Translations under genes and position numbers: made by a program
The notes under the pieces: generated by a model
What the model was told of the DNA's origin: nothing
Seen by the model: the letters and a program-made list of their open reading frames with translations, nothing else
Database searches by the model: none
Part shown: positions 11,483 to 33,476 of the stretch, piece by piece
How the letters are laid out: every line of letters starts with the position of its first letter
How positions within the stretch are numbered: the first letter of the stretch is position 1
NCBI GenBank assembly: GCA_943355025.1
Contig: CALRDW010000011.1
Coordinates: 1 to 33,476 of the forward strand
From: Candidatus Magasanikiibacteriota bacterium
GTDB taxonomy: Bacteria > Patescibacteriota > Patescibacteriia > Magasanikbacterales > 2-02-FULL-50-9b
Reading direction: 5' to 3'
Length of the DNA: 33,476 nt

Positions 11483-11574
11483 ACGTAGGCGCAGGTGGAG
11501 TACAGATGAGGAAGGGGATTTGTACTCCACAGTCGGCAGGATTTCCTGCGCGGCACAGTACAAAAATCCTACGT
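11483..11574 (+). other. Multi-helix inverted-repeat cluster, possible structured RNA
   Basis: ACGTAGG/CCTACGT (11483-11489/11568-11574) encloses GTGGAGTACA/TGTACTCCAC (11495-11504/11521-11530) and GCAGGA/TCCTGC (11536-11541/11544-11549). Confidence 0.5.
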
Positions 11575-11653
11575 GCGCAAGCAAAAAAAGTCGAGCCGTA
11601 CCCGCGGCGTAAACGCATTATTTAAGGGTTTATCTATACACTGTAACTTATAT

Positions 11654-14600
11654 ATGAATATTGCAAAGAAAGCGCTGTCATCAGTAGTGGTGTCAACGAC
11701 AATTCTTTGGTCAATGGGTGCTTCAATGCTCGTAGGTCCACTTACTGCACACGCAGCTGTGGCTGATGGCACACTCATCAAGGCTAAGGAAGTTGAAGCT
11801 GTTTACTACTACATGGGTGGCAAGCGTTGGACATTCCCAAATCTTAAAACCTATAAGACATGGTACAAAGATTTCTCAAGCGTTCAAATGGTGACACTTG
11901 CAGAACTCCAGACTTACCAGCTCACAGGTAACGCCGTGTATCGCCCAGGCACACGCTTGGTAAAGATCACGACTGATCCAAAAGTATACGCAGTTGAACC
12001 AAACGGTAAGCTCCGTTGGCTCAAGGACGAAGCAACAGCAAAAGGCCTTTTCGGTAACGCATGGGCTGCTCGCGTTGACGACGTATCAGACGCATTCTTC
12101 ACCAACTATTCAATCGGTGCAGACCTTTCAGCAGGTATGATCCCAGATGGATCACTCGTGCAGAACGGTGCAAACTGGTTCTACATTCTTGGTGGTAAGA
12201 AGCTCTCTGTTTCAGAATCAGTTCTCGCAAGCAACAGTCTCAACACGGCATTCGCAATTACAGCAGACGTTTCAGCTTTGGCTGCCGGCGGCGCACTTGC
12301 AGACGGCCAAGTTAAGGCTGTAACTCAGGGCAACACAGGAGGAACACCGGCTCCAGCACCAGCAGGTGGTGCATTGTCAGTGTCATTGGCATCTGACAAC
12401 CCAACTCCAGGTTCAATCGTGATTGACACTGGCGGTGACGCAGGTGGCCAACGTTTCGCAAAGATGCTCAAGGTTAACTTCACAGCAAATGGCGGTGACG
12501 TTGCAGTGACGCAGCTTCAGGCAAAGCGTCTTGGTATTTCCAAGGACGGTGATGTAGATACTCTCTACCTCGCAGACGCAAACGGCAAACTCTTGTCAAA
12601 GAACACTTCGTTCTCGAGCGGTGTCGGCCAATTTACTGGTACACTCTTCACAGTTCCAGCAGGCCAAACAATGGCTGTATGGCTCCTCGAAGACGTGAAT
12701 GCAAGCGCAGGCTCTGGCTCAACACAGGGTTGGTCGGTTGACGCAGCAGGCATTAAAATTGCAGGTACAGGTTCAGTAACTGGCTCAGCAATGGGCAGTC
12801 TCTTTACCGTAGCTTCAGTTTCAGACATGGGTCAGGTTGAATTTGCATCTTCATCACCACTTACTGCGGTGAATGTAGACGCAGGTAAGACCAGCTACAC
12901 GCTTGGTACATTCAAGTTCCGAGCTGTTAGCCAGGATATCTTGCTCAAGAAACTCAAACTCACACAGATTGGTACAATTTCGCCAGGCGATCTTGCTAAC
13001 TTCAAGATTCAGGTTGGTGGTGTACAGTTCGACGCAGTAAAAGCTGCGATGGATGGTAACACCCTTAGCTTTGACCTCACGAAGGACAGCGCAGGTGCAG
13101 CTAACGCGGACATGGGTATCAAGATTCTCTCTGGTCAGACAAAGTTTGTTGACCTTGTTGGTGACGTAGTTGGTGGTACCAGCCGTAACTTCAAGTTCAG
13201 CGTACAGAACCAGGAAGATGTTACAGCATTCGATAACAACTATAAGGTTTACGTTCCTGTCTTCTCCAACAATGGGTTGGCTGCTAACAGCGAATCGTTT
13301 GCAGTTCAGACCCTTGCAGCAACAACTATCAACACTGGTACGCTTACCATTTCATTGGCAGCGGACACAGCGCAGGGTAATGTTGCTTTGAATGGCAGCG
13401 CTGTAAGCGTAGGTAAGTACACCTTTACTGCTTCAGGTGAAGATATGAAGCTCACGACACTGTCGGTAACAACCACAGCAAGTGACTACCTTGACATTTA
13501 TAAGAATGTCAAGATCTATCTTGATGGCACACAGGTTGGTTCAACTGTATCAACACTTACAGCGGGTAATGCAACAGCATTTACCTTCACGAATAATTTC
13601 GTTGTTCGTGTTGGCAAGCCAAGCGTTCTCGAAGTATTTGTTGACCTCACGGACACCACACAGGCTGCAAACTCAACGTTTGCATTCCAGCTTGTTGGTG
13701 GCAGCAGCAACGGCCAAGGTCTCGTCTCTCTCACAAACATCAGCTCAACAGCTGTTTCAGCTAACACACTCACCCTTAAAACAGGTGCGCCAACGGTAGC
13801 AAAGAACACTGCATTGACTGATGCAACAACCATTGATCCAACGGGTGTAGTGAAAGATCTGAGCGTTAAGATTGGTTCGTTCGTAATCACAGCAGGTGCT
13901 GCAGAAGCATCAAAGATTACATCGATCGCAATCGGCGACTACGTCGGTGGCGGTTTGTCAGCGTACTTCAACCGTATTCGCCTTCAGAATGCAGGTGCAA
14001 ACATTGCTGCTGAAGTTGGTACGGCGAGTGGCGCAAGCTCAACATACACCTACACACTTACCACCCCAGTAACAATTGCTAAGGGTGCACAGTACGTAGT
14101 TGACGTTGTAGCAGACGTTCTCTCAACAACAAGTAATGCTTCAATGAATGCTGGCGTAGCTATCGCAGTCGTCGTTGCAGCTAACGGCATTACTTACCAG
14201 ACAATGGATACAGGCCAGAGTGGAACAATGCCATCATCGGCAACATCACTTCAGAATATATTTCTCGCATCAAAGGGATCTCTCGTCGCAGCTGTCAGTG
14301 CTGATACACCAATCGCACAGCAGCTTGTAATGGGTTCTCTCAATGTGCCGATCTACAAATTCAAATTGACTGCTGGTAAAGTTGAAGATATTAGTGTTAC
14401 TGATATCGCAACTGCAGCAACAATCATGGCTAGTGCAAGCTCAGTTACAGGTATCGTAAAGAATCTTCGCCTGTATGACGGAGACACACCAGTCGGTAGC
14501 CCAGTTGCAGGTCTTACAGCAGGCGATGCTTCAGCAGCAGCAGCAACTTCAACAGCGTACGCGAAGTTCTCCGCTTTGAGCATCGTAATTCCTAAGAACA

Positions 14601-15343
14601 CCTCGAAGACGTATACAGTTGTTGCAGATATTGCATCATCACCAGATACGTACTCGAGCGAAAACTTCACCCTCATGCTTATTGATGGTTATGACCAGAG
14701 CCTTTCTTCAGCCATTGTTTCAAAGGGCGCGAAGAGTGGCCAGACCATCACATCATCAGGTCAGGTGAACGTATTCACCGGTGCAGTTCTTAAGAGCAAC
14801 GTAATGACGACATTCCGCACGAAGATCAGCCTTGCACATGCTGCAACAGCACCTTCAGGCGCATCGTCAGCAAATGCTGCTCAGACCGTTGCTAAGTTCG
14901 TTGTGTCAAACACAGCAAACGTAAACGGTGCCGCTGCGATTGTTAGCCTCATCAACGTTGATGTAGCAACCTCAATCTCAATGGCAGCAGCAACAGCACG
15001 TCTCATTAAGATGTATAAGACTGAGAACTTGATCGCATCCAACCAGGTTGGTGCAAATTCAGATCTCAATCTGACAGCTAATGCTCGTGTATGTGTTCCA
15101 GGTACAACTGCATATGTTGCAGCAACTTGCGGCACATGGGCATTGGCGAACTTCACAGCAGTTACAATCGAAGCTGGTACTTCACAGACATTCGTAACGA
15201 CCTTTGATACAAGCGATGCAGCGTCAGCAAAGACGTTGACCGTAGGTGCTCAGGCTGGTACGGTAACATGGTCTGATGGATATACAGCAGGGATCATAAC
15301 AGTTGATGGTCTTCCACTCAGTGGTAAGACTTTGACCTACTAA
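11654..15343 (+). CDS. Large exported S-layer-like / cell-surface protein
   Basis: MNIAKKALSSVVVSTTILWSMGASMLVGPLTAHAA signal peptide. N-terminal 'YYYMGGKRWTFPNLKTYKTWY...KVYAVEPNGKLRWLKDEATAKGLFG...WFYILGGKKLSVSESV'. Long T/S/A/V-rich beta-like repeats. Confidence 0.8.
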   Translation: MNIAKKALSSVVVSTTILWSMGASMLVGPLTAHAAVADGTLIKAKEVEAVYYYMGGKRWTFPNLKTYKTWYKDFSSVQMVTLAELQTYQLTGNAVYRPGTRLVKITTDPKVYAVEPNGKLRWLKDEATAKGLFGNAWAARVDDVSDAFFTNYSIGADLSAGMIPDGSLVQNGANWFYILGGKKLSVSESVLASNSLNTAFAITADVSALAAGGALADGQVKAVTQGNTGGTPAPAPAGGALSVSLASDNPTPGSIVIDTGGDAGGQRFAKMLKVNFTANGGDVAVTQLQAKRLGISKDGDVDTLYLADANGKLLSKNTSFSSGVGQFTGTLFTVPAGQTMAVWLLEDVNASAGSGSTQGWSVDAAGIKIAGTGSVTGSAMGSLFTVASVSDMGQVEFASSSPLTAVNVDAGKTSYTLGTFKFRAVSQDILLKKLKLTQIGTISPGDLANFKIQVGGVQFDAVKAAMDGNTLSFDLTKDSAGAANADMGIKILSGQTKFVDLVGDVVGGTSRNFKFSVQNQEDVTAFDNNYKVYVPVFSNNGLAANSESFAVQTLAATTINTGTLTISLAADTAQGNVALNGSAVSVGKYTFTASGEDMKLTTLSVTTTASDYLDIYKNVKIYLDGTQVGSTVSTLTAGNATAFTFTNNFVVRVGKPSVLEVFVDLTDTTQAANSTFAFQLVGGSSNGQGLVSLTNISSTAVSANTLTLKTGAPTVAKNTALTDATTIDPTGVVKDLSVKIGSFVITAGAAEASKITSIAIGDYVGGGLSAYFNRIRLQNAGANIAAEVGTASGASSTYTYTLTTPVTIAKGAQYVVDVVADVLSTTSNASMNAGVAIAVVVAANGITYQTMDTGQSGTMPSSATSLQNIFLASKGSLVAAVSADTPIAQQLVMGSLNVPIYKFKLTAGKVEDISVTDIATAATIMASASSVTGIVKNLRLYDGDTPVGSPVAGLTAGDASAAAATSTAYAKFSALSIVIPKNTSKTYTVVADIASSPDTYSSENFTLMLIDGYDQSLSSAIVSKGAKSGQTITSSGQVNVFTGAVLKSNVMTTFRTKISLAHAATAPSGASSANAAQTVAKFVVSNTANVNGAAAIVSLINVDVATSISMAAATARLIKMYKTENLIASNQVGANSDLNLTANARVCVPGTTAYVAATCGTWALANFTAVTIEAGTSQTFVTTFDTSDAASAKTLTVGAQAGTVTWSDGYTAGIITVDGLPLSGKTLTY

Positions 15344-15514: not shown

Positions 15515-17197
15515 ATGTTTTCAAAGACGGCTCTTTTATTGGTACTTTTCTGCGTGTCCGGGTGTCTGGACCCGCTTCCAGACCGGAATATTGAATCGGC
15601 TGCTGAGGAGGTTCAGGGCGATGCGCTGCTTGGGAAACCAGATCAAGAGGCAGATGCAGCAACAGAAACTGAAGCAGACGCGGATATCGTTGATTCTGTT
15701 GAAACAGACGATGTCCAGGGCGCCAGTGACGAGGTCTCCATTGATACAACTGACGCGCAAGATGTGGCGGATGCACAGGACGCATCAGATGCCTCAGACA
15801 CTCAGGAAATCATCGACGCTGCGGATGTTATCGACACGAGCGTTAACGACGCCGAGGATACGACGGTTGTTGTTGATGCGGGCGTTGATGGAAATGATGA
15901 AGGCGATTCAGTTGTCGATGTCGAAGAAGTGAGCGAGGTTTCGGTCGATGCAGCTGATGCAGAGCAGAAGCCAGACCAAGAAATTGGCGAGGACAGTTCG
16001 GATGCATCTGACGCGCAAGACGTGGCAGATGCGCAAGCCGAAGTGGGGGCCCCAGACACTGAGGCCCCAGACATTCAGGAACTCATCGACGCTGCGGATG
16101 CTGTTGACACGAATGTTAACGACGCCGCGGAGACGACTGATTCCATGGACGTGGTCGATGCAAGCGACGCCGCGAAAGAATGCCCTGAAAATTGCACAGA
16201 CAACGACGAGTGCACGGTTGATTCTTGTGAAAACAAGGTCTGTGTGCACGCGAAGAAGTCGTGTGACGACGGCAATGTGTGTACGACGGATGCGTGCGAC
16301 CCGACAGAGGGTTGTCTGCATGTGCCGAACGCCAAACCGTGCACCGATAGCAACATCTGCACTGCGGATGATGCGTGTGCAGCAGGTGTTTGCGCCGGCG
16401 TAAAGCTCACGTGTGATGACGCTTCTGCATGTACCAGTGATGCCTGTAATTTGGCAACAGGGTGTACACACACAGCGTTGAACTGCGACGACGGCAACGT
16501 GTGTACACAGGATTTCTGCGATGTGAAAACCGGCTGCGTGAGTTTTCCTAAGAACGGCGCGTGCAGTGATGGGTCGGTGTGTACCTCTGGAGACACATGT
16601 TCCGGTGGTGCCTGCGTTGCAACGCCCATTGGTTGTGACGACAAAAACACATGTACCGCTGATTCGTGTAATCCCATAAGCGGTTGTGTCTATGCGAAAG
16701 CATCGCCACTGTTTGAGGAAACCTTTGAATCGTGGGCTGCAGATCCAGCAAAGAAGCTGAATCCGCAGATGTGGACGGCGTCGCCCTTTATCATAATCAT
16801 GCCTGCGCCGGTCAATAAGCCGGCAATCATGGGTGAATACGCAATGCTCGAAAATTCTTCTGCAACAGATCAAGAAGTAATCGTCGGCCTCAAGGCGCCG
16901 GTGGAGACACTTGATAAGCGGACACTCAGTTTTGACTGGTTCCGACAGCAGGGGGACTTCAAGAAGAAGTATTACTCGGGTGTGCGGCTGTTCATGGCAA
17001 ATGGGGATTTAGCAACCACCGTGATGATGACCTCCATTGCCCCGTTCGACGGTGTGCAGTTTCTGCACATGGTGGTCGCCCTTCCAAAGGGCGTTGTGTC
17101 AATTGAGTTCTTTACAGGGCATATCGACGAGAACGGCGGACCAGCGTTCTACTTCGACAACTTTCGCATCTTCGCGGGAGACAAAGACTGCCAATAA
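15515..17197 (+). CDS. Lipoprotein with an extremely acidic Asp/Glu/Ala-rich linker and a cysteine-rich CDDGNVCTxDxCDP repeat region
   Basis: SD GGAGGG upstream of ATG. Lipobox MFSKTALLLVLFCVSGC. Repeats KSCDDGNVCTTDACDPTEGC, LTCDDASACTSDACNLATGC, LNCDDGNVCTQDFCDVKTGC, IGCDDKNTCTADSCNPISGC. Confidence 0.88.
   Translation: MFSKTALLLVLFCVSGCLDPLPDRNIESAAEEVQGDALLGKPDQEADAATETEADADIVDSVETDDVQGASDEVSIDTTDAQDVADAQDASDASDTQEIIDAADVIDTSVNDAEDTTVVVDAGVDGNDEGDSVVDVEEVSEVSVDAADAEQKPDQEIGEDSSDASDAQDVADAQAEVGAPDTEAPDIQELIDAADAVDTNVNDAAETTDSMDVVDASDAAKECPENCTDNDECTVDSCENKVCVHAKKSCDDGNVCTTDACDPTEGCLHVPNAKPCTDSNICTADDACAAGVCAGVKLTCDDASACTSDACNLATGCTHTALNCDDGNVCTQDFCDVKTGCVSFPKNGACSDGSVCTSGDTCSGGACVATPIGCDDKNTCTADSCNPISGCVYAKASPLFEETFESWAADPAKKLNPQMWTASPFIIIMPAPVNKPAIMGEYAMLENSSATDQEVIVGLKAPVETLDKRTLSFDWFRQQGDFKKKYYSGVRLFMANGDLATTVMMTSIAPFDGVQFLHMVVALPKGVVSIEFFTGHIDENGGPAFYFDNFRIFAGDKDCQ
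15747..16140 (+). repeat. Duplicated acidic segment within the lipoprotein
   Basis: TTDAQDVADAQDASDASDTQEIIDAADVIDTSVNDAEDTT compared with SDAQDVADAQAEVGAPDTEAPDIQELIDAADAVDTNVNDAAETT. Similarity is also visible at nucleotide level. Confidence 0.8.
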
Positions 17198-17313: not shown

Positions 17314-19158
17314 ATGCGATTTTTTCAGCGACTTTTAACTGCTGCGTGCGCAACAATTCTGTTGGTTCCTCTGCTCGATGTTTCGCTCGCATGGTTTTTT
17401 CCAGCGTCGAATATTCGTCTCGTTGCACTGAGCGTCCTTATTTTTTTGTGTGCAATAATTGTTTTACTGCGCGCCGAGTTTCAACTCTTTTTTCAAAATT
17501 TTAAGCATCCAATCCTGTGCTCATACGTGGCAGTATTTGGTTTTCTTGCCGTTCGCTCTTTTTTGTCTGGCGGGATTACTGATGTGGGTGCATCGTGGTG
17601 GGGAAATTGGATTCGTACGGATGGCGTATGGACATGGATTGTGTGGGGAATGCTCGTCGCTGTTATGGCAGGCCTTTTCAAACAATCTGAGGGTTCTCGC
17701 AAAACAGTGTTGTGGGTGTTTGGCAGCGGTTTACTCCTGAGCAGCATCGTCGCATGGTTTTTTCCGGAGCTTGCAGCAAGCTCAGTTGGAAATGGAATTC
17801 GATTTGCAGGATTTGCGAGCAATCCCTGGTATTTTGCGCAGCTACTTATTTTCTTGCCATGGGTCACTGTTGAGCTGTGTGCTGGTCATCGTTTTTCTGG
17901 TCGCGTCGCGCTTGTTGTTACCGCACTCACTGGGTATTTTCTATTTGTTGGCGGTGTTCGAGGTGCGCTCGTAGCTGCTGCAGTTGCCCTTATATTTGTT
18001 GGTGCGCGTGTATCCCGCAGAATAGCTGTTCCAATAATAATTATACTCGCGCTCGTGGTCTGCACGACGTTATTGGTCAAGTTTAATTCGCGGTATGATC
18101 GAATCATGACCGATCCATCTATAAAAACACGTCTGACGCTCTGGCAACACGCACTCACTGATTTACATGCACAACCAATCATTGGATTTGGATTTGCGCG
18201 CCGTGAAGCAGTGCTTCAGAGCGCAGGGACTGACGCTGAAAAAATATTGTATTCTAACAAAAGCATTGATACTGCACATTCAGGTTATATAGATATTTTA
18301 CTCGATGGCGGAATAATTGGCCTCGCGTTATTTGGTTTGTGGATTTTTTATTTTATGAGGTCCGCAAACGGTTCTTCAAAAGATATTTTAATTATTACCG
18401 CACGGCAAGCAACGCTTATCGCTTATTTTCTTGCGGCAGGTACAGAATTTTTTACCGTGTGGGGGAGTCTTCCGCTTGCGCTACTTGCAGCTGTAATTAT
18501 TGCTGGTACAGAGAAATATTCTCCAACAAAGATACCAAATAACCGCACGGCGCAACTCGGCGCGCGCGCAGCTGCACTATTTATTTGTGTGCTTGTCGGC
18601 ACGAGTGCATTTTTTGTTCTGCGCGTTGTACCACAGCAAGCCGCAGCTCTTGCATCGGCGGAAAACGCTGCAGCGACTCGAGATATTGTTATGTTTGACC
18701 AGGCTTCAGCCGCACTTACCGGCGCATTTCCATTTTGGATTGAACGAGATGCTCAGTTTGTTCGACTCGCGACGATTTTGATGGAATCTGGGCCGCAACC
18801 GGATGTTGTTGAACACATCATGTCCCTCGCAGCGCCGCGATTTGACGCGCTTGTAGCACGAACAGATCTGCTCGCTCGCGATGATGCAGCGCTTGCGTTG
18901 TTTGCAGAATCACGCGCTCTTGCTCAGCATGGCCAGCTTGCACAAACGGACTTACAGTTGGCAGAAGAACTTACGCACCGTGCGCTTAAAAAATCTCCCG
19001 ACTACCCAGCGTATATTTTCAACCTAGCGGATATTTTACGAGAAGAGGGGCGTGGAGACGAGGCGCTTGCGCTTTTGGATGCGTATGCGAGCGCCCACCT
19101 CGAGATACCAAAAGCTGCGGAGTTGGCTCGCCTCATGCATGAGATTTTGAAGAAATAG
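17314..19158 (+). CDS. O-antigen ligase family membrane protein with soluble C-terminal (probable TPR) region
   Basis: Multiple TMs. 'PIIGFGFARREAVLQSA...SIDTAHSGYIDILLDGGIIGLALFGLW'. C-terminal 'YIFNLADILREEGRGDEALALLDAYASAH'. Confidence 0.75.
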   Translation: MRFFQRLLTAACATILLVPLLDVSLAWFFPASNIRLVALSVLIFLCAIIVLLRAEFQLFFQNFKHPILCSYVAVFGFLAVRSFLSGGITDVGASWWGNWIRTDGVWTWIVWGMLVAVMAGLFKQSEGSRKTVLWVFGSGLLLSSIVAWFFPELAASSVGNGIRFAGFASNPWYFAQLLIFLPWVTVELCAGHRFSGRVALVVTALTGYFLFVGGVRGALVAAAVALIFVGARVSRRIAVPIIIILALVVCTTLLVKFNSRYDRIMTDPSIKTRLTLWQHALTDLHAQPIIGFGFARREAVLQSAGTDAEKILYSNKSIDTAHSGYIDILLDGGIIGLALFGLWIFYFMRSANGSSKDILIITARQATLIAYFLAAGTEFFTVWGSLPLALLAAVIIAGTEKYSPTKIPNNRTAQLGARAAALFICVLVGTSAFFVLRVVPQQAAALASAENAAATRDIVMFDQASAALTGAFPFWIERDAQFVRLATILMESGPQPDVVEHIMSLAAPRFDALVARTDLLARDDAALALFAESRALAQHGQLAQTDLQLAEELTHRALKKSPDYPAYIFNLADILREEGRGDEALALLDAYASAHLEIPKAAELARLMHEILKK

Positions 19159-19165
19159 AATGAGC

Positions 19166-21205
19166 TCAATTGGCGATAAATTTGGAAAACTTCTGAGCCT
19201 CTGTGTGCATGCCCGCTCCCTCAAGCGCCTTTAAAATAAACGTAGAAACAGGATCGGGAATTATTGCTTTGCCGAGCCCGTTTTTAATTGCACGATCAAG
19301 CTCGTTCCAGCCCGCTTGTGGATTGTGCTCCGAAAAATATGTGAGCGCCAGAAACCAATGAGCAGGCGCAAAAGCCATGTCAATATCAATTGCTTTTTTG
19401 AAATAAAGCTCGGCAGCATCGAAGTTGTTAAGATGTAACTCAAGTTGGCCTAGTAAAATCAGCGGTTCAACGCGCAGTGGAGCAAGTGCGTGCGTTGTTT
19501 CGAAGTATGTTTTTGCGCGCTCAGAAAGCACAGGATCTTTCACGATATAAAATAATTTAAGGTTAGTGCGGCCAGCCGCGAGCTGCCACCAGGCATTCTG
19601 TGCATGCGCGTCGGCAAGTGTTTCGGTTAGCGCGCTCTCGATACGTGCGTTTTGCTGCCACGCGGTTTGCTCTGCTGCGGGGAGTGCGGCAAGCGCTGCT
19701 GTATTACTCCAATAAGGATCAAGAACTACCTCTCCAATACTTTGCCATGCGTCAAACGCAATCGGTGAAGCTGCGCCGCGCGTCGCGATGATTTGAATGG
19801 ACCGTGTTTGTTCGCTCGGCAGCGAGGTTTGTGCAAGCGCAGCCATGGCGTATGCGACGGGGAGTTCGTTGAACAGCACAGTATATGTAACCCACACGCT
19901 TGGGAGTGCGGTAAGGAGGAGGACGGTTCGAGTTATAAGCTTGTCGCGCCGAAGTGTCGTGGACTCTTGTGCCGGAGCGGTCAGTAACTCTGTGGCATCA
20001 TATCGCGCGGAAAGAATCGTGAGCATGAAGAAAAACAGAATCAGCGGCCCTTGAGTCTCAAACGCAAACGCGTTTTGAATTTCGTGCGCCACAAAAAAAC
20101 CAATGAGCAAGGCGGTTCCCTCAACTGAAAGTGCGTCGCGTTTTTGCAAAGTGCGACAGTACAGAAGCGCGATAAAGATAAGTGCGCCATACGAACACAA
20201 GCCGAGCACGCCAGTAGTTGCGCCGAGCTCGAGTTGTGCATTATGCGGTTTGTCCGTGTAGGTTTCCTGGAATCCAAATTTTGACAAGCGGGGATCGAAT
20301 AATTCATCGGCAACAACGCGATAATTTTCGGGACCAACACCAAGAACGGGGTGGGTGCGAAGTCCAGAAAGCGCGACGCGCCAGTTGATAAGGCGTGTTT
20401 CAGTGGTTACTGTACCAGTCGATAAAATATTCATTTTCAAAAGGAGAACTATACAGAAAAGTAATGCAACAATTACTCCAACCGCAACACCGATTTTTTT
20501 TCGATTTACTGCACCAGAAAAAAACATCCACAGGAAGGCGACGAGCATTCCCAGAGCGAGCCCGGCAAATGGGCCGCGCGAAGCAGTAAAAATAAGAATG
20601 ATGAATGCTGCGCTGCAACAAATGAGTGGGAGAGTCTTTGCGCGTTTATCTACTGTGCGTTGCTCCGTCCAGAAAAAAGCAAAAATAAAAATTGCAAGCA
20701 CCGCGTACATGCCAAAAAAAATCGCGTTGCCGAGGGTTCCGCCAATGCGATCACCAGAAAATGTTTGTGAAAATCCGTGGATGAATTTTTGTGCGACGCC
20801 CCATGCACACATGAGCAGCACTATTACTGCGAGTGCACGAATGAGATTTTTTTCTGAACGTTTTTCGAGCAATAATTGTTTGAGTGCGAAGTGGTTGCCA
20901 AGAGCAAGCACCCACCAGGAAACACCGACAAGACGAGGCATTGAACTCCACCAACTCCCAGCCGGATCTGCGCCAACAAGAGCTGCCACGACAAGAACGG
21001 CGACAAAAATAGTGAGGGCGACGTCCAAGCGATTGATCCGAATCGCCCGTTTCGAGCGCCACGCACGCCACGTTGCCACAATAATTATTGCTGAGCTGAA
21101 GACTGCAAGCCAAATCCAACGCGGAAATGCATGTGGATAGGGGAGCGAGTTCCAGAGAACGAGTGGCGAAAATAGAAGTGCGATTTCCAAAATAAGCAAA
21201 TTCAT
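19166..21205 (-). CDS. O-antigen ligase family membrane protein with C-terminal TPR
   Basis: MNLLILEIALLFSPLVLWNSL... 'HPVLGVGPENYRVVADELFDPRLSKFGFQETYTDKPHNAQLELGATTGVLG'. TPR-like 'NNFDAAELYFKKAIDIDMAFAPAHWFLALTYFSE'. Confidence 0.85.
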   Translation of the reverse strand: MNLLILEIALLFSPLVLWNSLPYPHAFPRWIWLAVFSSAIIIVATWRAWRSKRAIRINRLDVALTIFVAVLVVAALVGADPAGSWWSSMPRLVGVSWWVLALGNHFALKQLLLEKRSEKNLIRALAVIVLLMCAWGVAQKFIHGFSQTFSGDRIGGTLGNAIFFGMYAVLAIFIFAFFWTEQRTVDKRAKTLPLICCSAAFIILIFTASRGPFAGLALGMLVAFLWMFFSGAVNRKKIGVAVGVIVALLFCIVLLLKMNILSTGTVTTETRLINWRVALSGLRTHPVLGVGPENYRVVADELFDPRLSKFGFQETYTDKPHNAQLELGATTGVLGLCSYGALIFIALLYCRTLQKRDALSVEGTALLIGFFVAHEIQNAFAFETQGPLILFFFMLTILSARYDATELLTAPAQESTTLRRDKLITRTVLLLTALPSVWVTYTVLFNELPVAYAMAALAQTSLPSEQTRSIQIIATRGAASPIAFDAWQSIGEVVLDPYWSNTAALAALPAAEQTAWQQNARIESALTETLADAHAQNAWWQLAAGRTNLKLFYIVKDPVLSERAKTYFETTHALAPLRVEPLILLGQLELHLNNFDAAELYFKKAIDIDMAFAPAHWFLALTYFSEHNPQAGWNELDRAIKNGLGKAIIPDPVSTFILKALEGAGMHTEAQKFSKFIAN

Positions 21206-21211
21206 AAGGGT

Positions 21212-21241
21212 AGTATACGGAACCGGCCTTGTTTTGGTCAA
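21212..21241 (-). promoter_or_regulatory. Leaderless-type promoter for the minus-strand O-antigen ligase
   Basis: On the minus strand: TTGACC, 18 nt, TATACT, acccttATG (6 nt from -10 to ATG). Confidence 0.65.
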
Positions 21242-21253
21242 TAAAAGGGAGTA

Positions 21254-21282
21254 TTGAAAAAAACCCCACATTTTTGTACACT
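21254..21282 (+). promoter_or_regulatory. Leaderless-type promoter for the plus-strand O-antigen ligase
   Basis: TTGAAA (21254-21259), 17 nt, TACACT (21277-21282), 7 nt, ATG (21290). Confidence 0.65.
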
Positions 21283-21289
21283 GGTACAT

Positions 21290-23425
21290 ATGATATCTGC
21301 GCGCAAAGTTGGGGAATTTTTTATACATTTGCTCATCCTGTCGCCGCTCGTACTCTATCAGGACACGCTGTATCCTTTTGTTGTACCGCGAAACGCTTGG
21401 ATGCTGACGATGTTTTCTGGTGCGATCCTTGCGATTCTGTGGGCCTTAAAGGCGGGACAGCGAATAAAATTTACAAAACTTGATGTCGCGGTTGTTTGTT
21501 TTGCAGCCGCTCTTGTTGTGACCTCATTCACGGGCTTTGATTTACATATCAGCCTGTGGAGCGAAGAAGGGAGAATAATGGGAGTAATTTTTTGGCTGCT
21601 GTGGGCGCTTGTTTTTGTTGGGTCACGCGCGCTCGATTGGCAACCTGGTGAGTGGCGCAGATTTTTTTATTCAACAACGATCGTTGTTTTTCTCATGAGT
21701 CTTCTTGGTGTGCTCCAAGCGACAGTTCCTTCTTTTGCGTCAACGTCTGGCGCTCGTGTAGTGGGGACACTCGGAAACAGTCTAATTTTCGGGGCTTACC
21801 TCATGCCACATCTTTTTTTGTTAGGGTATTTTATGGCGCGTCAGCAGGCATATACATTTCCACGCTGGTTTGTGCATCGTGCTGTACCATTCACAATCCT
21901 CATGGTAGGCAGCAGTTTATTTTTTACTCAAACACGTTCGTCATTTCTCGGATTATTCATTGGCCTCGCCGTTGCGGCGCTTGGTTTTTTTCTTACGCAA
22001 CACCGTTCAGAAACTGTTCAACGGGCACGGCGGTTTGTGCTCATTGGATCCGCATGTCTGATCATCGGATACATAGCGTTGTTCATAATCGCGCGTCAAA
22101 CCCAGGATAATCGTTTGCTGCGACTTACATTTTCGAGTACACAAAGCTTGACGCTTAAGACGCGCCTCATCAATTGGCAAATAGCGCTCCACGCGATTGG
22201 TGCGCGGCCGATTCTTGGTTGGGGCTGGGAAAATTATCGCGAAGCAACGAATGTGTTTTTTAATCCAGCGCTTGCTTCGTACTCGTTTTACGAAACACGA
22301 ATTGATAAACCGCATAATGCGCTTCTTGAATTGCTCGTAACTACTGGGGCCCTTGGCTTTGCTTGTTACGCAGCACTCATTATTTTGCAACTTTTCGCGC
22401 TTGGGCGTTGGCAAAAAGAACTGGGCGGGGCGCCACTCGCAGCATGGATTTTAATTGGCGGTGCTGTTGCGTACCAGGTTCAGAATTTTTTTGGCTTTGA
22501 TACGCACACGACAGTCTGGGTTTTTGGACTTTTTTTACTGCTCGCGAGCGAACATAGTCCGAGTCTGATCGAGTTTGAGTTACCACGCGCGTGGTCTTTT
22601 TTTCGACCAGTTGCGTTCGTAGCAAGCGCTGTGTGTGTTGGTGCTATTCTTGTTTATGGGGCATGGGGTCCGTTTTTAACAGGTATTCAAATTAATCACG
22701 CGCTTCTCGGGCTTGAGCACCATGATATGTCGCTCGTTACCGCTGCGTGGAGTATAGAAGAGCATTCTCCGGCCGGTCCGTATCCGTTTGAAACATGGCG
22801 TTGGTTTAGTCACGCGTTGCTGTGGAATTATGCGTCGGGCGCGGATAAACTCGAGACAATACCCGCAAGCATCTGGCCCTTATGGGAGGCAGATGTTGCG
22901 CGAATGGGCGTGCTGACTGAGGAATATGCGGCGGAGTATCCGAATTCAGCAGATTGGCAATTATTTACGGGCAAAATCGCGTACTATATTGCGGTAGTGA
23001 AGGATGATGCGCACTTTCTCGACCTCGCGGACACATATTTTCAACGTGCGTTTGTGCTTGCCCCAGAGCGACAAGAAGCGCCGCTCCTGCTATCATATGT
23101 CCACGCGCTCAAGGCAGATAACGCTGGCGCACTCGAATGGTTTGAAAAAGCGGCGTCGCTCACAGTTTCATCCGAGGTAACCAGCACCGTAGATTTTTTG
23201 TCAAAGCGATTCGTTCGCGAGCAAGATTACACACACCTCGTTGCGCTCCTAGTCTTCGCGAGCAACAAAACACCGACTGCGGATCTATTTGCTCAGCTGG
23301 CCGCTGCATATGCCACGACGCATCACTATACAGAGGCGCGTGCTGCAGTCGCGCGAGCAGTCGAACTTGATCCAAGCTTTGAGCAGGAGGCTGAGCAATT
23401 TCTTAAGACTCTTCCAAAACAATAA
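21290..23425 (+). CDS. O-antigen ligase family membrane protein with C-terminal TPR-like region
   Basis: 'RPILGWGWENYREATNVFFNPALASYSFYETRIDKPHNALLELLVTTGALGF'. TPR-like C-terminus 'LADTYFQRAFVLAPERQEAPLLLSYVHALKADNAGALEWFEKAASL'. Confidence 0.85.
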   Translation: MISARKVGEFFIHLLILSPLVLYQDTLYPFVVPRNAWMLTMFSGAILAILWALKAGQRIKFTKLDVAVVCFAAALVVTSFTGFDLHISLWSEEGRIMGVIFWLLWALVFVGSRALDWQPGEWRRFFYSTTIVVFLMSLLGVLQATVPSFASTSGARVVGTLGNSLIFGAYLMPHLFLLGYFMARQQAYTFPRWFVHRAVPFTILMVGSSLFFTQTRSSFLGLFIGLAVAALGFFLTQHRSETVQRARRFVLIGSACLIIGYIALFIIARQTQDNRLLRLTFSSTQSLTLKTRLINWQIALHAIGARPILGWGWENYREATNVFFNPALASYSFYETRIDKPHNALLELLVTTGALGFACYAALIILQLFALGRWQKELGGAPLAAWILIGGAVAYQVQNFFGFDTHTTVWVFGLFLLLASEHSPSLIEFELPRAWSFFRPVAFVASAVCVGAILVYGAWGPFLTGIQINHALLGLEHHDMSLVTAAWSIEEHSPAGPYPFETWRWFSHALLWNYASGADKLETIPASIWPLWEADVARMGVLTEEYAAEYPNSADWQLFTGKIAYYIAVVKDDAHFLDLADTYFQRAFVLAPERQEAPLLLSYVHALKADNAGALEWFEKAASLTVSSEVTSTVDFLSKRFVREQDYTHLVALLVFASNKTPTADLFAQLAAAYATTHHYTEARAAVARAVELDPSFEQEAEQFLKTLPKQ

Positions 23426-23434
23426 TATTCTCAT

Positions 23435-25627
23435 ATGGCAGCAGCGCAACAACAGGAAAATAAATTTGCGGAATTCATGGTTGAGTTATTTGTATACGGC
23501 GCACTGCTTATTCCTCTCATCGTTGCCTCCTCTTCATCAATTTTTCCCTTTGTGTTTCCAAAGGTTATTTATTTTGAGACCGTTGTCGGACTTGCAACGG
23601 CTGCATTTGTAGGCCTCGCATATCGAAAGTCCGGCTACCTTAAATTTAATAGCGCCTATATAAAATTGTGTGGATTGTACGGCCTTGTGCTTGCGCTAAC
23701 CGGTTTTACTGCCGTTGACCCAAACCGTGCGTTCTGGAGTAATCACGAGCGCATGACAGGCATTGTTTTTGTGTGGCATTGTTTGTTATTTTCAGTCATG
23801 ATCGCAGTATTTTATGCGCATAATCGCGATCGTATTGAACGATTTCTCGTCTATGCGTGCGGCGTTGCCTCGGTTGTCTCACTCACAGGTATTTATCAAA
23901 AAATTGATCACAGTTTTTTAATGGGAACTGGTGATCGCGTTGCAGGCACGCTCGGGAATCCAATTTATTTGGGCGGCTATGCAGCAGAGTTTTTTCTGCT
24001 CAGCGCATATCTTGCATATCGGTTCCGTGGAAATTGGATGAAGTGGTTGATGCTTAGCTTCGCACTCATTAATTTTGTAGGCATGTATTTGAGCGGCACA
24101 CGCAGCGCAGTCATTGGCCTTGTTGGCGCACTCGGTGTTCTTGTGATTGTTGGGCTCGTTAATCTCTGGAAAAATGGCCGGAAAAAATTTGTGGGCGTAA
24201 TTATTAGCGGCATTATAGCGTGCGCTGTCGTGATTGTTTTACTCAGCAGCGTTTTGCGTTCATGGGTTCCTGAGGGTTCGCTTTTGGAGCGCTATACTAA
24301 CATTTCAATAACAAATACTACGGCGAGCACCCGCTTTATTGCCTGGAATATTGCTATTAAAGGGTTTGAAGAGCGACCGCTTCTTGGGTGGGGCCCAGAA
24401 AATTTTTATTATGCATTTAATAAATATTTCAATCCAAAATCACTACTCTTTGGCACATCAGAAACATGGTTTGATCATGCGCACAACGCAGTCTTTGATA
24501 CGTTGGTAACCGAGGGCGTGATTGGATTTATCGTGTATCTTGCCCAGTTTATTTTAATCTGGTGGATGTGCGCGAAAACCTTTGTAAAAGAGGGTGATTC
24601 AAATGAGCGCTGGCTCTCTGCGACGCTCGCCGCTATATTTGTTCTCCATTTTATTCACAATATTTTTGTGTTTGACCATCCGGGCTCATACGTTGTGTTT
24701 TATATGTTCGCGGGAATAGTCGCCGCGCGCTACGCAACAAGCCGACTGCCGGCTCCTCCGACGAAAATGCATTCACCAATTCGCGAACCGTCCTACGGCA
24801 TAATCGCTGTACAAGTCGCCATTATTGGGATCGCAGGATTTGTTATCATTCCATCGGTTCGTCAGAATAATTTAGATTTAAAGGCTCAGATCGCGAGCTA
24901 TTCGGATATGGGTTTGGCGCAACAGTTGTTTGAACAATCGATTGCGATTAACGGGCCGCACACACCGGACGTACTCCTTGATGTCGGACGCGTTGCGCAA
25001 CATGGTAGAATTACGAAGGATTATTTTAATTTTGCAGTTAATTCGCTTGATTTGCTTTTGACAAAATACGAGCCAGATAATGTTTTGGCTGCGATCATGG
25101 AGGGTCAGATTTTAATGAGTGCGGTTGATGCAGGGAATACAGAGCTTGTTGCGAAAGCTGACAGCGTGTTTGCACATGCCGCTGAGTTGAGCCCTAAGCG
25201 ACAGCAAGTGTATTATGCGTGGGCACGGCTTAAACTCATCACGAATCGAATTGATGAGGGACAAAAATTGCTTCAAAAAGCTGTGGACGATGAGCCAAAC
25301 GTTGGAATATCGCATTGGTATTTGTCTGTGCTTGTGGCAGATACAGATCCAAAGCGTGGCGCACGCGAGCTTGATTTAGCGCTCGCGCATGGATTTATCA
25401 TTCCGGACACATCAATACGTATTGCTGCAGCACTTGTGTATGAAAAAAATAATGAATATGAAAAATCTGCGGATTTGATTACGCCGTTAGTCGAAGATCC
25501 GAATTCAACTGGCTGGGACGAAATCCTTATTAAAGAAACAGATGTGATTTTGGCGAAAGCACACAGACTTGTTACACAGCAACATTTGCGCGAAAGATTT
25601 CCGGCGGTTTTTCAGAAAAAAGTATGA
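23435..25627 (+). CDS. O-antigen ligase family membrane protein with C-terminal TPR-like region
   Basis: 'RPLLGWGPENFYYAFNKYFNPKSLLFGTSETWFDHAHNAVFDTLVTEGVIGF'. C-terminal 'ADSVFAHAAELSPKRQQVYYAWARLKLITNRIDEGQKLLQKAVDDEP'. Confidence 0.85.
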   Translation: MAAAQQQENKFAEFMVELFVYGALLIPLIVASSSSIFPFVFPKVIYFETVVGLATAAFVGLAYRKSGYLKFNSAYIKLCGLYGLVLALTGFTAVDPNRAFWSNHERMTGIVFVWHCLLFSVMIAVFYAHNRDRIERFLVYACGVASVVSLTGIYQKIDHSFLMGTGDRVAGTLGNPIYLGGYAAEFFLLSAYLAYRFRGNWMKWLMLSFALINFVGMYLSGTRSAVIGLVGALGVLVIVGLVNLWKNGRKKFVGVIISGIIACAVVIVLLSSVLRSWVPEGSLLERYTNISITNTTASTRFIAWNIAIKGFEERPLLGWGPENFYYAFNKYFNPKSLLFGTSETWFDHAHNAVFDTLVTEGVIGFIVYLAQFILIWWMCAKTFVKEGDSNERWLSATLAAIFVLHFIHNIFVFDHPGSYVVFYMFAGIVAARYATSRLPAPPTKMHSPIREPSYGIIAVQVAIIGIAGFVIIPSVRQNNLDLKAQIASYSDMGLAQQLFEQSIAINGPHTPDVLLDVGRVAQHGRITKDYFNFAVNSLDLLLTKYEPDNVLAAIMEGQILMSAVDAGNTELVAKADSVFAHAAELSPKRQQVYYAWARLKLITNRIDEGQKLLQKAVDDEPNVGISHWYLSVLVADTDPKRGARELDLALAHGFIIPDTSIRIAAALVYEKNNEYEKSADLITPLVEDPNSTGWDEILIKETDVILAKAHRLVTQQHLRERFPAVFQKKV

Positions 25628-28734: not shown

Positions 28735-29175
28735 TTATTTTTTTTCTGTCGTACACACGTGGTGCTCACCGATAATTTCAAAGGTGAGCCAGAGAATCGG
28801 GCGGCCGGCAAGAAGCGAGGCGATTTTTTCTGCCCACTCAATTACAACAAGACATGATGAATCGTTAAAAAAATCTTCAGCACCAATCGCCGCAAGCTCG
28901 TCCGCGCTTTCAAGTCGATACGCATCTATGTGGACAAGTGTTTCAATTCCACGAATCGCGCGCGGCAATTCATAGGGCTGCATGAGGGTAAATGTCGGTG
29001 ACACGATGGTTTCGGAAACACCAAGAGCTGCACCGAGCGCTTTTACAAATGTTGTTTTTCCTGCGCCAACAGGCCCGCTGAGCGCTAAAATCATGCCAGG
29101 CTCGAGGGAATTTATAAGTTTCTCAGCAAACGCTGAGGTATCAGCGAGCGTTAAAAGTTTGCGGTGTGTATTCAT
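28735..29175 (-). CDS. tsaE: tRNA threonylcarbamoyladenosine biosynthesis ATPase TsaE
   Basis: Walker A 'LALSGPVGAGKTTFVKALG', 'VSPTFTLMQPYE', 'LVHIDAYRLESADELAAIGAEDFF', 'LVVIEWAEKI'. Confidence 0.92.
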   Translation of the reverse strand: MNTHRKLLTLADTSAFAEKLINSLEPGMILALSGPVGAGKTTFVKALGAALGVSETIVSPTFTLMQPYELPRAIRGIETLVHIDAYRLESADELAAIGAEDFFNDSSCLVVIEWAEKIASLLAGRPILWLTFEIIGEHHVCTTEKK

Positions 29176-29183
29176 ACACAAAC

Positions 29184-29227: not shown

Positions 29228-29668
29228 ATGTGGACCACGTTCCTCCTCAAACTTGGCGGCGCACTACTTTCAATTTTTGCGACTGCAAATATTGCGGATT
29301 GGTTTTTTAGTGGTTCAAAGTGGGCACATAAATACTATGCAGCGTTCCCAGAAATTTGGCGACCGCTCGGCGAGCATGCGGGCAGTGGCGAAGAAGGCCG
29401 CGTAATTCGCTCCGCGATTTTCCTTGGTTTTGAATTTGCATTTGCGTTTGTGCTTTTCTATCTTTTTTTTCAGCCCGGCGTTGTGTTTTCATCGCCACTC
29501 ACACGCGGCCTTGCTGTCGGACTCATACTCTGGCTGCTCATTCCCGTTCCACTCCTCCTTACCCAGCATCTGTTCATTAAGTATCACAAGGTGAGCACAC
29601 TGGGCCATTTGGCAACGTGGTATGTAAAACTCACGGCTGCGAGTCTCATAATGGCATTCATGTTTTAA
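29228..29668 (+). CDS. Hypothetical polytopic membrane protein
   Basis: MWTTFLLKLGGALLSIFATANIADWFFSG... with several hydrophobic helices. Start set by the promoter element, not the longer ORF-track start. Confidence 0.7.
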   Translation: MWTTFLLKLGGALLSIFATANIADWFFSGSKWAHKYYAAFPEIWRPLGEHAGSGEEGRVIRSAIFLGFEFAFAFVLFYLFFQPGVVFSSPLTRGLAVGLILWLLIPVPLLLTQHLFIKYHKVSTLGHLATWYVKLTAASLIMAFMF

Positions 29669-29672
29669 TTCT

Positions 29673-29987
29673 ATGACCGAGCTCCTTCATCAAAATATTA
29701 TTTCGCTTTTCGGCCTTTCGCGTGCGAGCACGGGCGCGAAAAATCAGCTGCTGAGCCGATTAGTCGAGCTGGTTGAAAAACGCGTGCTCGTAATTATTTT
29801 GGATCGCTTAACACCTGAGCAGCAGGAGGACTTTTTGCGGATACTCGATAATGGCACGGACGAGGATCGCACAATTTTTTTGGGACAACATGTTCCGGAT
29901 GTTGGGCACCTCATTGATGACGAAGTGAATAAAATTAAATTACAAGCACGCACATTCGGTGCGCAATACGCTCCTCAGGCTGCATAA
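29673..29987 (+). CDS. Small conserved hypothetical protein (DUF5663-like)
   Basis: MTELLHQNIISLFGLSRASTGAKNQLLSRLVELVEKRVLVIILDRLTPEQQEDFLRILDNGTDEDRTIFLGQHVPDVGHLIDDEV. Family recalled, not searched. Confidence 0.6.
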   Translation: MTELLHQNIISLFGLSRASTGAKNQLLSRLVELVEKRVLVIILDRLTPEQQEDFLRILDNGTDEDRTIFLGQHVPDVGHLIDDEVNKIKLQARTFGAQYAPQAA

Positions 29988-29990
29988 CTT

Positions 29991-32900
29991 ATGACACACG
30001 AAATTCCAGACTCATCAGAAAATTTACTCGAGGCTCCAATACAATTAGAGGGGGAAGAAGGGCAGGACGGATATATGGAGCCGGATTTAAATCCTGCGGA
30101 TCACATTGTTGACGGCGTTGACGTTCCGCTCAAACAAAAATCGATAAATGAGATTAAGCGTGAGGAGCGGACAGAGCTCACACGTCGTTCGCCGCAGTAT
30201 ACAGAAATTGTGAGTGACTGGATGGAGTATGTTGTTATTCCACAGCGGGACGATGCCCAGAAAGATCTTTTCCTGCTGCAACTCAGCGCCCGAAAAAATG
30301 ATGTGGCAGCGCGTCAATTTCTGGCTGACGTCGCTGGTTGGGATGATGGTGAATGGCGGAGCAGCATGTGGTTTCAGCGATATACAGATCGCGCGGTGCA
30401 TCGCCAGCTTGGCAAACTTTTGTCACTGCCAGAAGATGAGCTGATTAAGCACGTTGAGCGCGATGTGCAGCTTATTGAGCACGTGGACAAATGGGAAGGG
30501 GCTCAAGATAAAATTTCGCGCGCAAAGTATACGCAGCATTATGTTCGCGCTGTTGCCCTTCAAGAGCTGCCAATAATTCTTGAGGGTCTCAACCGTCACG
30601 AGCTTGGAAAACGCGTGCTTGCGTATATTAATTCCGCGCCGCACAGCGGACAAACGGAAAGCGCTGCACGCGCGAATCTTGAGTTTGAGAATCCGCCGGC
30701 TCCAGAAACTCGTCTTGCCCGCGCAGCAAACCAAATTCGTCGGTCAGAGCTTCCGCACCATGCAGATAATGCCGAAAAAAATCAGCGCGGCGACACAGTT
30801 AAATTGTGGGTAACGGTTGATGAAAACGGGAAACTACATCGCGATGATGCGACACTTGTTGAAAAAGGTGCCGCACGGATAGTTCGTTTTAAATTTCGTG
30901 ATGCGAAAACTCCGCTTGCACCGGGCTCGTATTTATTAGTTTTGCGTGCAGAGGCAATTAATCCTATTCCGGGCACTGTAGGCGGCGTCGAATTTCAATT
31001 TATTGCAGATCGCGACTTTTTTCACACTGGCCAAACGACGCGGCCGATCGGCTTTATGCGTGATGCGCGCGGTGGTTTACAATATATTTTGGCGGATGGA
31101 TCGAGCGCGCTTTTGCCGCCAGCGCATTGGGGTGAGGTAAATAGAAACGTAGGAAAGTTACGCGATACTGGGCGTTGCGACGACGGAACATTTCCGCTCA
31201 TTCGCGTTGTACGCGAAACGAACAAGGAAATGATTGCACAACCTGTTTCTGAAAACGAAATGCAGTATCGACAGCAACTTGACGAGGTGCTTGCTCAGTA
31301 TGCAATGCCGCCTGAAGGCCGTGAAAATTATTGGTTTTCAAAAGGAAATAAGTGGCCACCTGGGTTTCATTCCGATGTACTCACCCGCGAACTTCGTGGC
31401 GGGCAGTCGTTTCGAGAAAATGCACGCGAACTTATAAAAAAGAATACAGAAGAATTTCCAATTCCAATGGTCGTGAGCATGAAGGCCGGACAAATTTCGC
31501 GCGGTTTTCAGAGAGTTATTGCAGGTTTTGAGGCTGAAGCAGAAAAAGACCAGGTCAATTTGGTACTCACGCGTGCAGCAAAAGACGCCGAACGTGCGTT
31601 TAACGCGATATCTCATGCACGCAATAGCGGCATGGATTTGCCAGTTGCGGTCGAGCAGGCATATTTTGATGAGTACGTCCGGTTCTTTACATTGCTTCAC
31701 CAGTTTGATGAGCAATATAAGGGTCAAAACCGACCACTGTTTTTTTCGTCAGACCTTGATGGCGAAACGTCAATCCAATTGTTCAACTCAGTCGGAATTC
31801 ATACCCTCGTTGTGCCATTCGTGCCAGACAATAGTCGAGTGCAGCGGGGGAAATATGCCGCATATATTGAACGAGCAGTTCATGTTGACGCGCACCATGG
31901 TAGCGGCAAACTGATTATCCCTGAGGGACATGCGTATCGAAATGCGGATGGCGAACAGGAAATTTTGCCACAAGGAGTCAGTGTTGTGCTCGACGAGAAC
32001 CTTCCTGATTTTAATTCAGCTGTTGGTGCAACAGAATCATTTCTACAGGACCTTGGATTCTTGAGCATGGACATGGAGCACAATGCAGATCCACTGGTCC
32101 GTGCGCGGTTCTATCTCATTCGGTTTGTTGATGCGATTGATTCGCATTCAGGCCCTCTGGCAACAAAAAATGGTCGTGCGCGCGTGTTCAATGGCGACTT
32201 ATCGAAACCGTATGACACACGTGTAGATTATCGTCGGAGCATTTACGGCCTGAGCGATAATGTTCTTAACACACCAGAAATTGGCCGCGCTGACTTGGTT
32301 GCACAATTTTTTGACGCGGTTGTTCCAGGAATTGAAGCGCAAATTTTAAAAGAAGATGCGATGCAGGGCAAAAAAAATATGGATCCAGACGTGGGGCCAC
32401 TGTGGCGACGCGTGCTCGAACGACTGGTTGATGTTGACGCGCTTGATTGGATTGAAAAAAATGCTGCACCAGAAGACACACCAAGCATAACAAAAGAAGC
32501 GAATTTCAAATACGACATGTCGATTTGTGGGATGCACAATTTGATTGAAGGAGGCTTTGTTGCGCAAACACGCTTTGGTAAAACACTGTTCGATCCATTC
32601 GGCTTCGTACCGTCGCGTGGCATGGCGCCGTTTACTGTTGGAGCGAATCCTGTGTATGGACTGCCACAGTTTGATGCGTTCATAAGTTATAACCTTGAGG
32701 GAAAGATGTGTTCAATTATTGTTTCGGGCGACAATCTTGACGCACAAGGCAATCCAATTCTTATTCCCCATGATTTACTCATGAACAGTTCGGGGACTGG
32801 CCAAAAGGTAACACGAATTATTGGTGGTGTTATGGCGGTTATGAATCAATCATCGCGCGATCGTTTGACAGGTATCGAAGAACTTCTACGTGCTGTTCAT

Positions 32901-33476
32901 GCGCGGCTGGAGGGTGGACGTCCGGGCGAATTGCCACGAGGTCTTCAAAATATGCTCGACATTGAGCACGGAATTGATATCCAAACACGAAAAGCAAGCT
33001 CAGCAACACCGCTCGAAGTTTATAAAAAATATCGCAAGTGGGCTCGCAATCTGACACCGCACGATATTGCAGCAAGAAAATCGCATGATGCGGAGCGGCG
33101 GGCAGGGCGCGGCCCCGCGGCTTCGCAGAAAGAGCGTGCAGCTACAGAGACAATCCAAGAGGAGACTCGTCACGCAAAACCTCAGGAATTGGCGCCGCCT
33201 GAAGAAAGCCACACTGAAAACATTTCAGTTCACAGTCCAATTAGAAAGGCGATTGATGCTCTCCGTAAACCAGAAACGCGCGAGACAGTGCGATCAAAAG
33301 AATTACGTATTGAACTCGCTGGACTCGTTGAACAAGCATCCCGCAGGCGCTTGTCGGGAGTGAGCGACGAGGAACTTGATCGATTGACGCATGAGATTGA
33401 AGCTGCCAAACGCTTCATGATTGAGGATGCACGATATTTAATCGGACGAGGAGCACAACAACGATTGAAAACAACC
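29991..33476 (+). CDS. Giant protein of unknown function (at least 1162 aa, 3' truncated by window edge)
   Basis: Continuous frame from ATG 29991 (MTHEIPDSSENLLEAPIQLEGEEGQDGYMEPDLNPADHIVDG...) with no stop found by manual translation to the window end (...RYLIGRGAQQRLKTT). It starts 3 nt after the upstream stop. Not in the ORF track. Confidence 0.85.
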   Translation, partial: MTHEIPDSSENLLEAPIQLEGEEGQDGYMEPDLNPADHIVDGVDVPLKQKSINEIKREERTELTRRSPQYTEIVSDWMEYVVIPQRDDAQKDLFLLQLSARKNDVAARQFLADVAGWDDGEWRSSMWFQRYTDRAVHRQLGKLLSLPEDELIKHVERDVQLIEHVDKWEGAQDKISRAKYTQHYVRAVALQELPIILEGLNRHELGKRVLAYINSAPHSGQTESAARANLEFENPPAPETRLARAANQIRRSELPHHADNAEKNQRGDTVKLWVTVDENGKLHRDDATLVEKGAARIVRFKFRDAKTPLAPGSYLLVLRAEAINPIPGTVGGVEFQFIADRDFFHTGQTTRPIGFMRDARGGLQYILADGSSALLPPAHWGEVNRNVGKLRDTGRCDDGTFPLIRVVRETNKEMIAQPVSENEMQYRQQLDEVLAQYAMPPEGRENYWFSKGNKWPPGFHSDVLTRELRGGQSFRENARELIKKNTEEFPIPMVVSMKAGQISRGFQRVIAGFEAEAEKDQVNLVLTRAAKDAERAFNAISHARNSGMDLPVAVEQAYFDEYVRFFTLLHQFDEQYKGQNRPLFFSSDLDGETSIQLFNSVGIHTLVVPFVPDNSRVQRGKYAAYIERAVHVDAHHGSGKLIIPEGHAYRNADGEQEILPQGVSVVLDENLPDFNSAVGATESFLQDLGFLSMDMEHNADPLVRARFYLIRFVDAIDSHSGPLATKNGRARVFNGDLSKPYDTRVDYRRSIYGLSDNVLNTPEIGRADLVAQFFDAVVPGIEAQILKEDAMQGKKNMDPDVGPLWRRVLERLVDVDALDWIEKNAAPEDTPSITKEANFKYDMSICGMHNLIEGGFVAQTRFGKTLFDPFGFVPSRGMAPFTVGANPVYGLPQFDAFISYNLEGKMCSIIVSGDNLDAQGNPILIPHDLLMNSSGTGQKVTRIIGGVMAVMNQSSRDRLTGIEELLRAVHARLEGGRPGELPRGLQNMLDIEHGIDIQTRKASSATPLEVYKKYRKWARNLTPHDIAARKSHDAERRAGRGPAASQKERAATETIQEETRHAKPQELAPPEESHTENISVHSPIRKAIDALRKPETRETVRSKELRIELAGLVEQASRRRLSGVSDEELDRLTHEIEAAKRFMIEDARYLIGRGAQQRLKTT

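Follow-up and report, generated by a model that had tools for sequence, protein, structure and literature searches.

The locus studied here raised the question of what is encoded by the very long reading frame with which the window (the complete 33,476-b contig C11 of a tiny uncultured bacterium, Candidatus Magasanikbacteria) comes to an end, and whether the resemblance to DHH-type phosphoesterases noticed in an initial annotation reflects a true relationship.

A giant gene that continues on a second contig

From the ATG at position 29991, frame +3 remained open for 1162 codons up to the end of the window (29991..33476, + strand), and re-translation, proposed in the initial annotation as a check, revealed neither a stop nor a frameshift along them. 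The gene had been presented as the largest in its part of the window, and its 1162 open codons stand, but it is not the longest frame overall, a rank that belongs to 11573-15343 (1256 aa). The other five frames over the same region contained 30-87 stops each, the probability of a stop-free frame of this length arising by chance at the local base composition was ~1e-26, and the GC content at the three codon positions (64/40/42%) matched the pattern of the adjacent genes. As already suspected from the lack of a stop in the window, the contig ends mid-gene, and the missing stop is an artefact because the window ends where the contig does. With the C-terminal half of a homologue as the query, a search of the same genome led to the corresponding sequence at the end of C4, a contig whose first 15 b (reverse complement) are an exact, in-frame match to the final 15 b of the window (33462..33476, + strand). 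The stop that an extension of the contig was expected to reveal was located on C4, 57 codons past the join, giving a protein of ~1219 aa; the join is based on the exact 15-base overlap, synteny and reading frame, that is, on the sequence level rather than the read level. Next on C4 comes an ORF of 611 aa, homologous to the relatives' C-terminal halves, and then folD, glyA and elp3 in the same order as in those relatives.

A single conserved copy of the giant was present in all 6 genomes examined from its own taxonomic family, the five related genomes being public MAGs named Candidatus Magasanikbacteria, whose proteins matched the N-terminal 1162 codons with E values from 1e-26 to 1e-44. Two of these relatives carry fused proteins of 1829 and 2215 aa, two have the gene divided into 2-3 ORFs, and in one it is cut by a contig end. 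The split giants break after ~1220-1240 aa (1238+709, 1222+153+692 and 1219+611 aa), and a frameshift or pseudogene was ruled out, as the frames are open throughout whether the homologues are fused or split. The gene is genuine, as is the family to which it belongs, and this family is unannotated. Searches of Pfam, NCBIfam, PHROGs, PADLOC and PDB sequences with the giant gave no match, so that the early failure to recognise an established family was borne out as far as annotated families are concerned. A single-sequence search of 51 further genomes of the order yielded no homologue either.

The operon and its DUF5663 gene

The giant is the last of three closely spaced genes, separated by gaps of 4 and 3 b. 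The first (29228..29668, + strand) encodes a multi-pass membrane protein of 146 aa and the second (29673..29987, + strand) a 104-aa protein which passed the Pfam cut-off for DUF5663 (PF18908, E 2.6e-8; 34.7 bits vs 23.7). The divergent neighbour tsaE (28735..29181, - strand; Pfam TsaE, E 6e-34) anchors the synteny. The membrane protein shares 43-53% identity with its homologues in the five relatives, every one of which begins MWT, and shows a weak similarity to DUF1761 that falls under the Pfam cut-off; a longer start at 28982 was rejected, since it overlaps tsaE and is not conserved. The order typA (with an insert in some), tsaE, membrane protein, DUF5663 and giant was kept in the five relatives (L007-L011), although in L009 the DUF5663 ORF is truncated, and folD and glyA came after the giant wherever the contig goes on. 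Both the spacing and this synteny, whose survey had been suggested, confirm the operon initially proposed, in which the small membrane protein and the DUF5663-like protein accompany the giant beside tsaE. The adjoining genes for translation and one-carbon metabolism (typA, tsaE, folD, glyA) alone point to no substrate. No transmembrane segment was found in the giant protein, which may be tethered to the membrane.

Two further groups of genes were observed in the window: 603-2897 and 15515-17197 encode apparently secreted proteins in which CDGLDNNCDGKIDE (MopE-like) and CDDGNVCTTDACD-type cysteine repeats recur, and 17314-25627 holds three successive large membrane proteins, O-antigen ligase-like and with C-terminal repeat regions.

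Of 192 genomes sampled from the phylum, 42 contained DUF5663, against none of 14 control genomes, and a literature search found no paper mentioning it. In three other families, a profile built from 39 DUF5663 proteins picked out the gene that directly precedes the DHH-like giant (E 1e-16 to 1e-20), and no other gene in these loci. DUF5663 thus lies directly upstream in 4 of the 6 families with a DHH-like giant, that of the window included, and is absent in L105 and L024/L107. Given a frequency of roughly one DUF5663 gene in four genomes, the adjacency is very unlikely to be due to chance, and a widespread DUF gains a recurrent genetic neighbour. DUF5663 genes are also followed, within ~30 b, by other giants at L068:1840-5574, L088:2952-7904 and L096:1784-5281, as well as in L075, L084, L086, L091 and L093. 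These giants measure 833-2103 aa and include glycosyltransferase (L068, L088) and calcineurin-like phosphoesterase (L096, E 1.8e-14) domains; the idea of a DHH module in every DUF5663-linked giant was discarded, as the other giants sampled are devoid of it. The L096 locus runs on into apparent PrgI/VirB4-type secretion genes. Of the 40 DUF5663 loci inspected, around one third lie instead beside infB/fmt/priA-type genes, a second context seen in L057-L067, L073 and L080, with an infB-like gene upstream and fmt, def, priA, recJ and map near. The giants may be physical partners of DUF5663 proteins. As a speculation to which we give roughly one chance in four, DUF5663 proteins would be dedicated partners of Patescibacteria-specific giants with interchangeable enzyme domains, the pairs would form machines not seen so far, and the DHH site of Magasanikbacteria would perform a new, carboxylate-rich chemistry.

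Relatives of the giant and the DHH fold

The DHH nuclease fold cuts DNA and short RNAs. Single-sequence searches of genome and viral contigs returned no remote relatives of the giant, which were found by profile alone: the core profile detected three proteins from further families within the phylum (P0010-P0012), and a profile of these detected four more (P0013-P0016). This DHH-like branch is rare and patchy, and was seen in 5 of the 380 and 7 of the 362 genomes sampled across the phylum. The remote relatives carry SDLDG, (V/I)DTG, (F/Y/I)DHHG and DN in the order of the giant's own motifs, and a literal DHH occupies motif III in P0010-P0015 (EHH in P0016). P0013 (339 aa, L106:6081-7100) stands alone, consists essentially of just the DHH module and has motifs I-IV intact with no GGGH, which makes it the protein best suited to biochemical work; phage, plasmid and viral sequences yielded no homologue of it. 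A peptidase C39-like region lies behind the DHH module in L024:6081-9347 and L107:4363-8474, fused in one and a separate ORF in the other. On contig C19 of the window's genome (L110) there is a second DHH paralogue of 392 aa, with the triad position apparently IGY, and a relative (L131) reads EHH, so that the order has a second DHH protein of degenerate type.

When profiles were compared with hhalign, the Magasanikbacteria core aligned with the relatives keeping SDLDG / VDTGN / FYDHHGP / VDN at 99.05% over 274 columns, with an E value (1.9e-18) that refers to one pairwise comparison and not to a database-wide search. These intermediate relatives in turn reached phage NrnB at 90.0% (E 1.7e-6, 227 columns, score 53), on a par with the 89.7% obtained for NrnB vs RecJ as a control. 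The NrnB set had been gathered from phage records with a B. subtilis NrnB fragment as the query, the identities being confirmed by the record annotations. The same intermediates gave 2-45% against RecJ, depending on the set, 2% against NrnA, and 0-2% against the controls HAD, Fmt, FtsA, FtsZ and Map, the raw scores of the non-DHH profiles not exceeding 25 (13 for HAD). Compared directly, the window subfamily scored about 2% with NrnB (1.8%) or RecJ, and 0-2% with all families tried. Because the Magasanikbacteria group alone reaches no known family, the membership of the giant in the DHH superfamily rests on the intermediates and on the structure predictions.

Two AlphaFold2 models were obtained (pLDDT 62.8 and 70.0; pTM 0.63 and 0.70), the DHH half of the core model being low in pLDDT. 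With this core model, Foldseek ranks 1-22 in the PDB were all DHH-superfamily proteins (RecJ, RecJ-Cdc45, NrnA, DhhP and replisome entries); in the last of these we take the matched chain of 530-570 residues to be Cdc45, the table giving the entry and not the chain. The best match, 7bih, had an E value of 6e-3 with a probability of 0.95 over 430 columns, each match being weak alone; none attained 1e-3 in the PDB search of the core model, and rmsd was large. Against a viral structure library, the named top matches of the same model were NrnB, RecJ, DHH phosphohydrolase and phosphoesterase, while the longer model retrieved OB/S1 barrels first and Cdc45/GAN next (E 0.1-0.65) from the PDB. These structural scores are modest singly, and it is their consistency across matches that constitutes the evidence. 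With true-DHH homologues, the NrnB match of the relatives and Foldseek in agreement, the initial assignment to DHH is probably right as to the fold. This points to a patescibacterial branch of the DHH superfamily that has gone unrecognised and is missed by Pfam and NCBIfam.

The predicted metal site and its known counterparts

Alignment of the six proteins (22-30% identity to the window giant), together with hhalign against the true-DHH relatives and Foldseek, placed a putative, divergent DHH domain at residues 575-735 (31713..32195, + strand). Its motif I, SDLDGE (residues 587-592; 31749..31766, + strand), is invariant at all six residues; motif II, DAHH (residues 633-636; 31887..31898, + strand), at D633 and H636; motif III, LDEN (residues 667-670; 31989..32000, + strand), which holds the DHH-triad position, at L, D and E; and motif IV is the invariant aspartate D717 (32139..32141, + strand). 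The initial annotation was correct about motif I but had taken the final HH of HVDAHH for the catalytic DHH, which the alignment excludes, as it belongs to motif II, the first His of which is not conserved (DISHG, DITHG and DASHS in relatives). The true motif III is LDEN in the giant and LDE[DN] in 5/5 relatives, with no literal DHH. Residues 852-990 (32544..32960, + strand) form a predicted DHHA1-like domain, delimited by the AlphaFold2 model and by the NrnB alignment of the relatives, which reaches DHHA1. The GGGH of DHHA1 was absent in 13/13 family members (P0005 ends before that point), and it is not universal among the phage NrnB proteins used either, 3 of 7 showing it. Further upstream, residues 265-340 (30783..31010, + strand) are predicted to form a beta-rich domain, with weak OB/S1-type matches (AlphaFold2, Foldseek).

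The aspartates expected to bind metal in motifs I, II and IV (D588, D590, D633 and D717) were invariant across the six proteins, and 8 of the 9 invariant D/E/H columns of the whole alignment fell at motif positions. All three catalytic histidines are replaced in the giant, and E592, H636 and E669 are invariant newcomers at the motifs. We consider it somewhat better than an even bet that the giant, apparently soluble, carries a DHH-DHHA1 phosphoesterase module of divergent type at ~575-990, from a patescibacterial DHH branch nearest NrnB, with a rebuilt active site in which the four aspartates are kept, the three histidines lost, and E592, H636 and E669 fixed instead. One or two divalent ions could be bound by the kept aspartates, with E669 standing in for the triad histidine that binds metal and H636 perhaps assuming its chemistry. 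Such a module would bind metal and a ligand, and metal-dependent hydrolysis or nucleotide binding is its likely role. Of all features of the giant, the predicted remodelled metal site lends itself best to testing, and it provides a testable fold and active site for one of the longest unannotated genes in a minimal genome.

Lost catalysis would be an equally good fit to the absence of every catalytic histidine and of GGGH, and to the varied lesions elsewhere. Motif I reads N/S in P0014/P0015, motif II N in P0015 and motif III EHH in P0016, and because these other giants bear different lesions, canonical catalysis has probably been lost more than once in the family. The module could accordingly be a pseudoenzyme in the manner of Cdc45, its DHH-DHHA1 fold retained purely for scaffolding or for clamping nucleic acid in a large assembly, and the prominence of Cdc45 and RecJ-Cdc45 among the structural matches agrees with this. 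A dead site, however, would not need four catalytic aspartates invariant in six proteins, and the clustering of the invariant D/E/H columns at the motifs argues against it as well. Cdc45 has inactivating changes in 3/4 motifs (PMC4873980), whereas the giant is changed at motif III and in the histidines, yet keeps its four catalytic aspartates. We regard this possibility as rather unlikely, at under one chance in three.

A new fold unrelated to DHH, with the likeness arising by convergence on acidic motifs, is improbable: the window subfamily has no direct significant profile match to known families and the DHH half of the model is low in pLDDT, but four ordered motifs align with literal-DHH relatives that reach NrnB through DHHA1, and 22/22 top PDB matches are DHH proteins. 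A HAD-type hydrolase, in which SDLDGE would be HAD motif I (DxDG[TS] on inspection) and the other acidic residues motif IV, is very improbable, since three HAD_2 proteins from the same order scored only 13-15 in hhalign (53 for the relatives with NrnB), the structure lists of the core model contain no HAD entry (a HAD-type epoxysuccinate hydrolase appears once for the longer model, E 0.38), and the putative nucleophile, the first D of DxDG, is lost in P0014 and P0015.

The predicted DHH-DHHA1 module can be set beside three known systems. RecJ, archaeal RecJ-Cdc45 and Cdc45 provide the best structural match, over ~430 columns with linker and DHHA1, and a similar DxDGxT motif I, but the giant differs from them in having no GGGH, no direct profile significance for its subfamily and no signs of replication in its neighbourhood. 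NrnB proteins (COG2404), DHH-DHHA1 3'-5' exoribonucleases, share the order of motifs I-IV, a DLDG-type motif I and the succession of DHH and DHHA1; they stand alone at ~300 aa, whereas the giant has ~1219 aa, DEN for DHH and no GGGH, and NrnB is defined by DHH and GGGH (PMC12709177). The third system is NrnA/DhhP; in B. subtilis NrnA the active site comprises D24, D26, D80, D156, H20, H103 and H104, and the D80N D156N variant is inactive (PMC9757072). By alignment, H20, H103 and H104 correspond to F584, E669 and N670 of the giant and are different, whereas the aspartates D24, D26, D80 and D156 find their like in D588, D590, D633 and D717; a DHH to DE[DN] swap with all aspartates kept amounts to a natural experiment on the use of metal by DHH enzymes.
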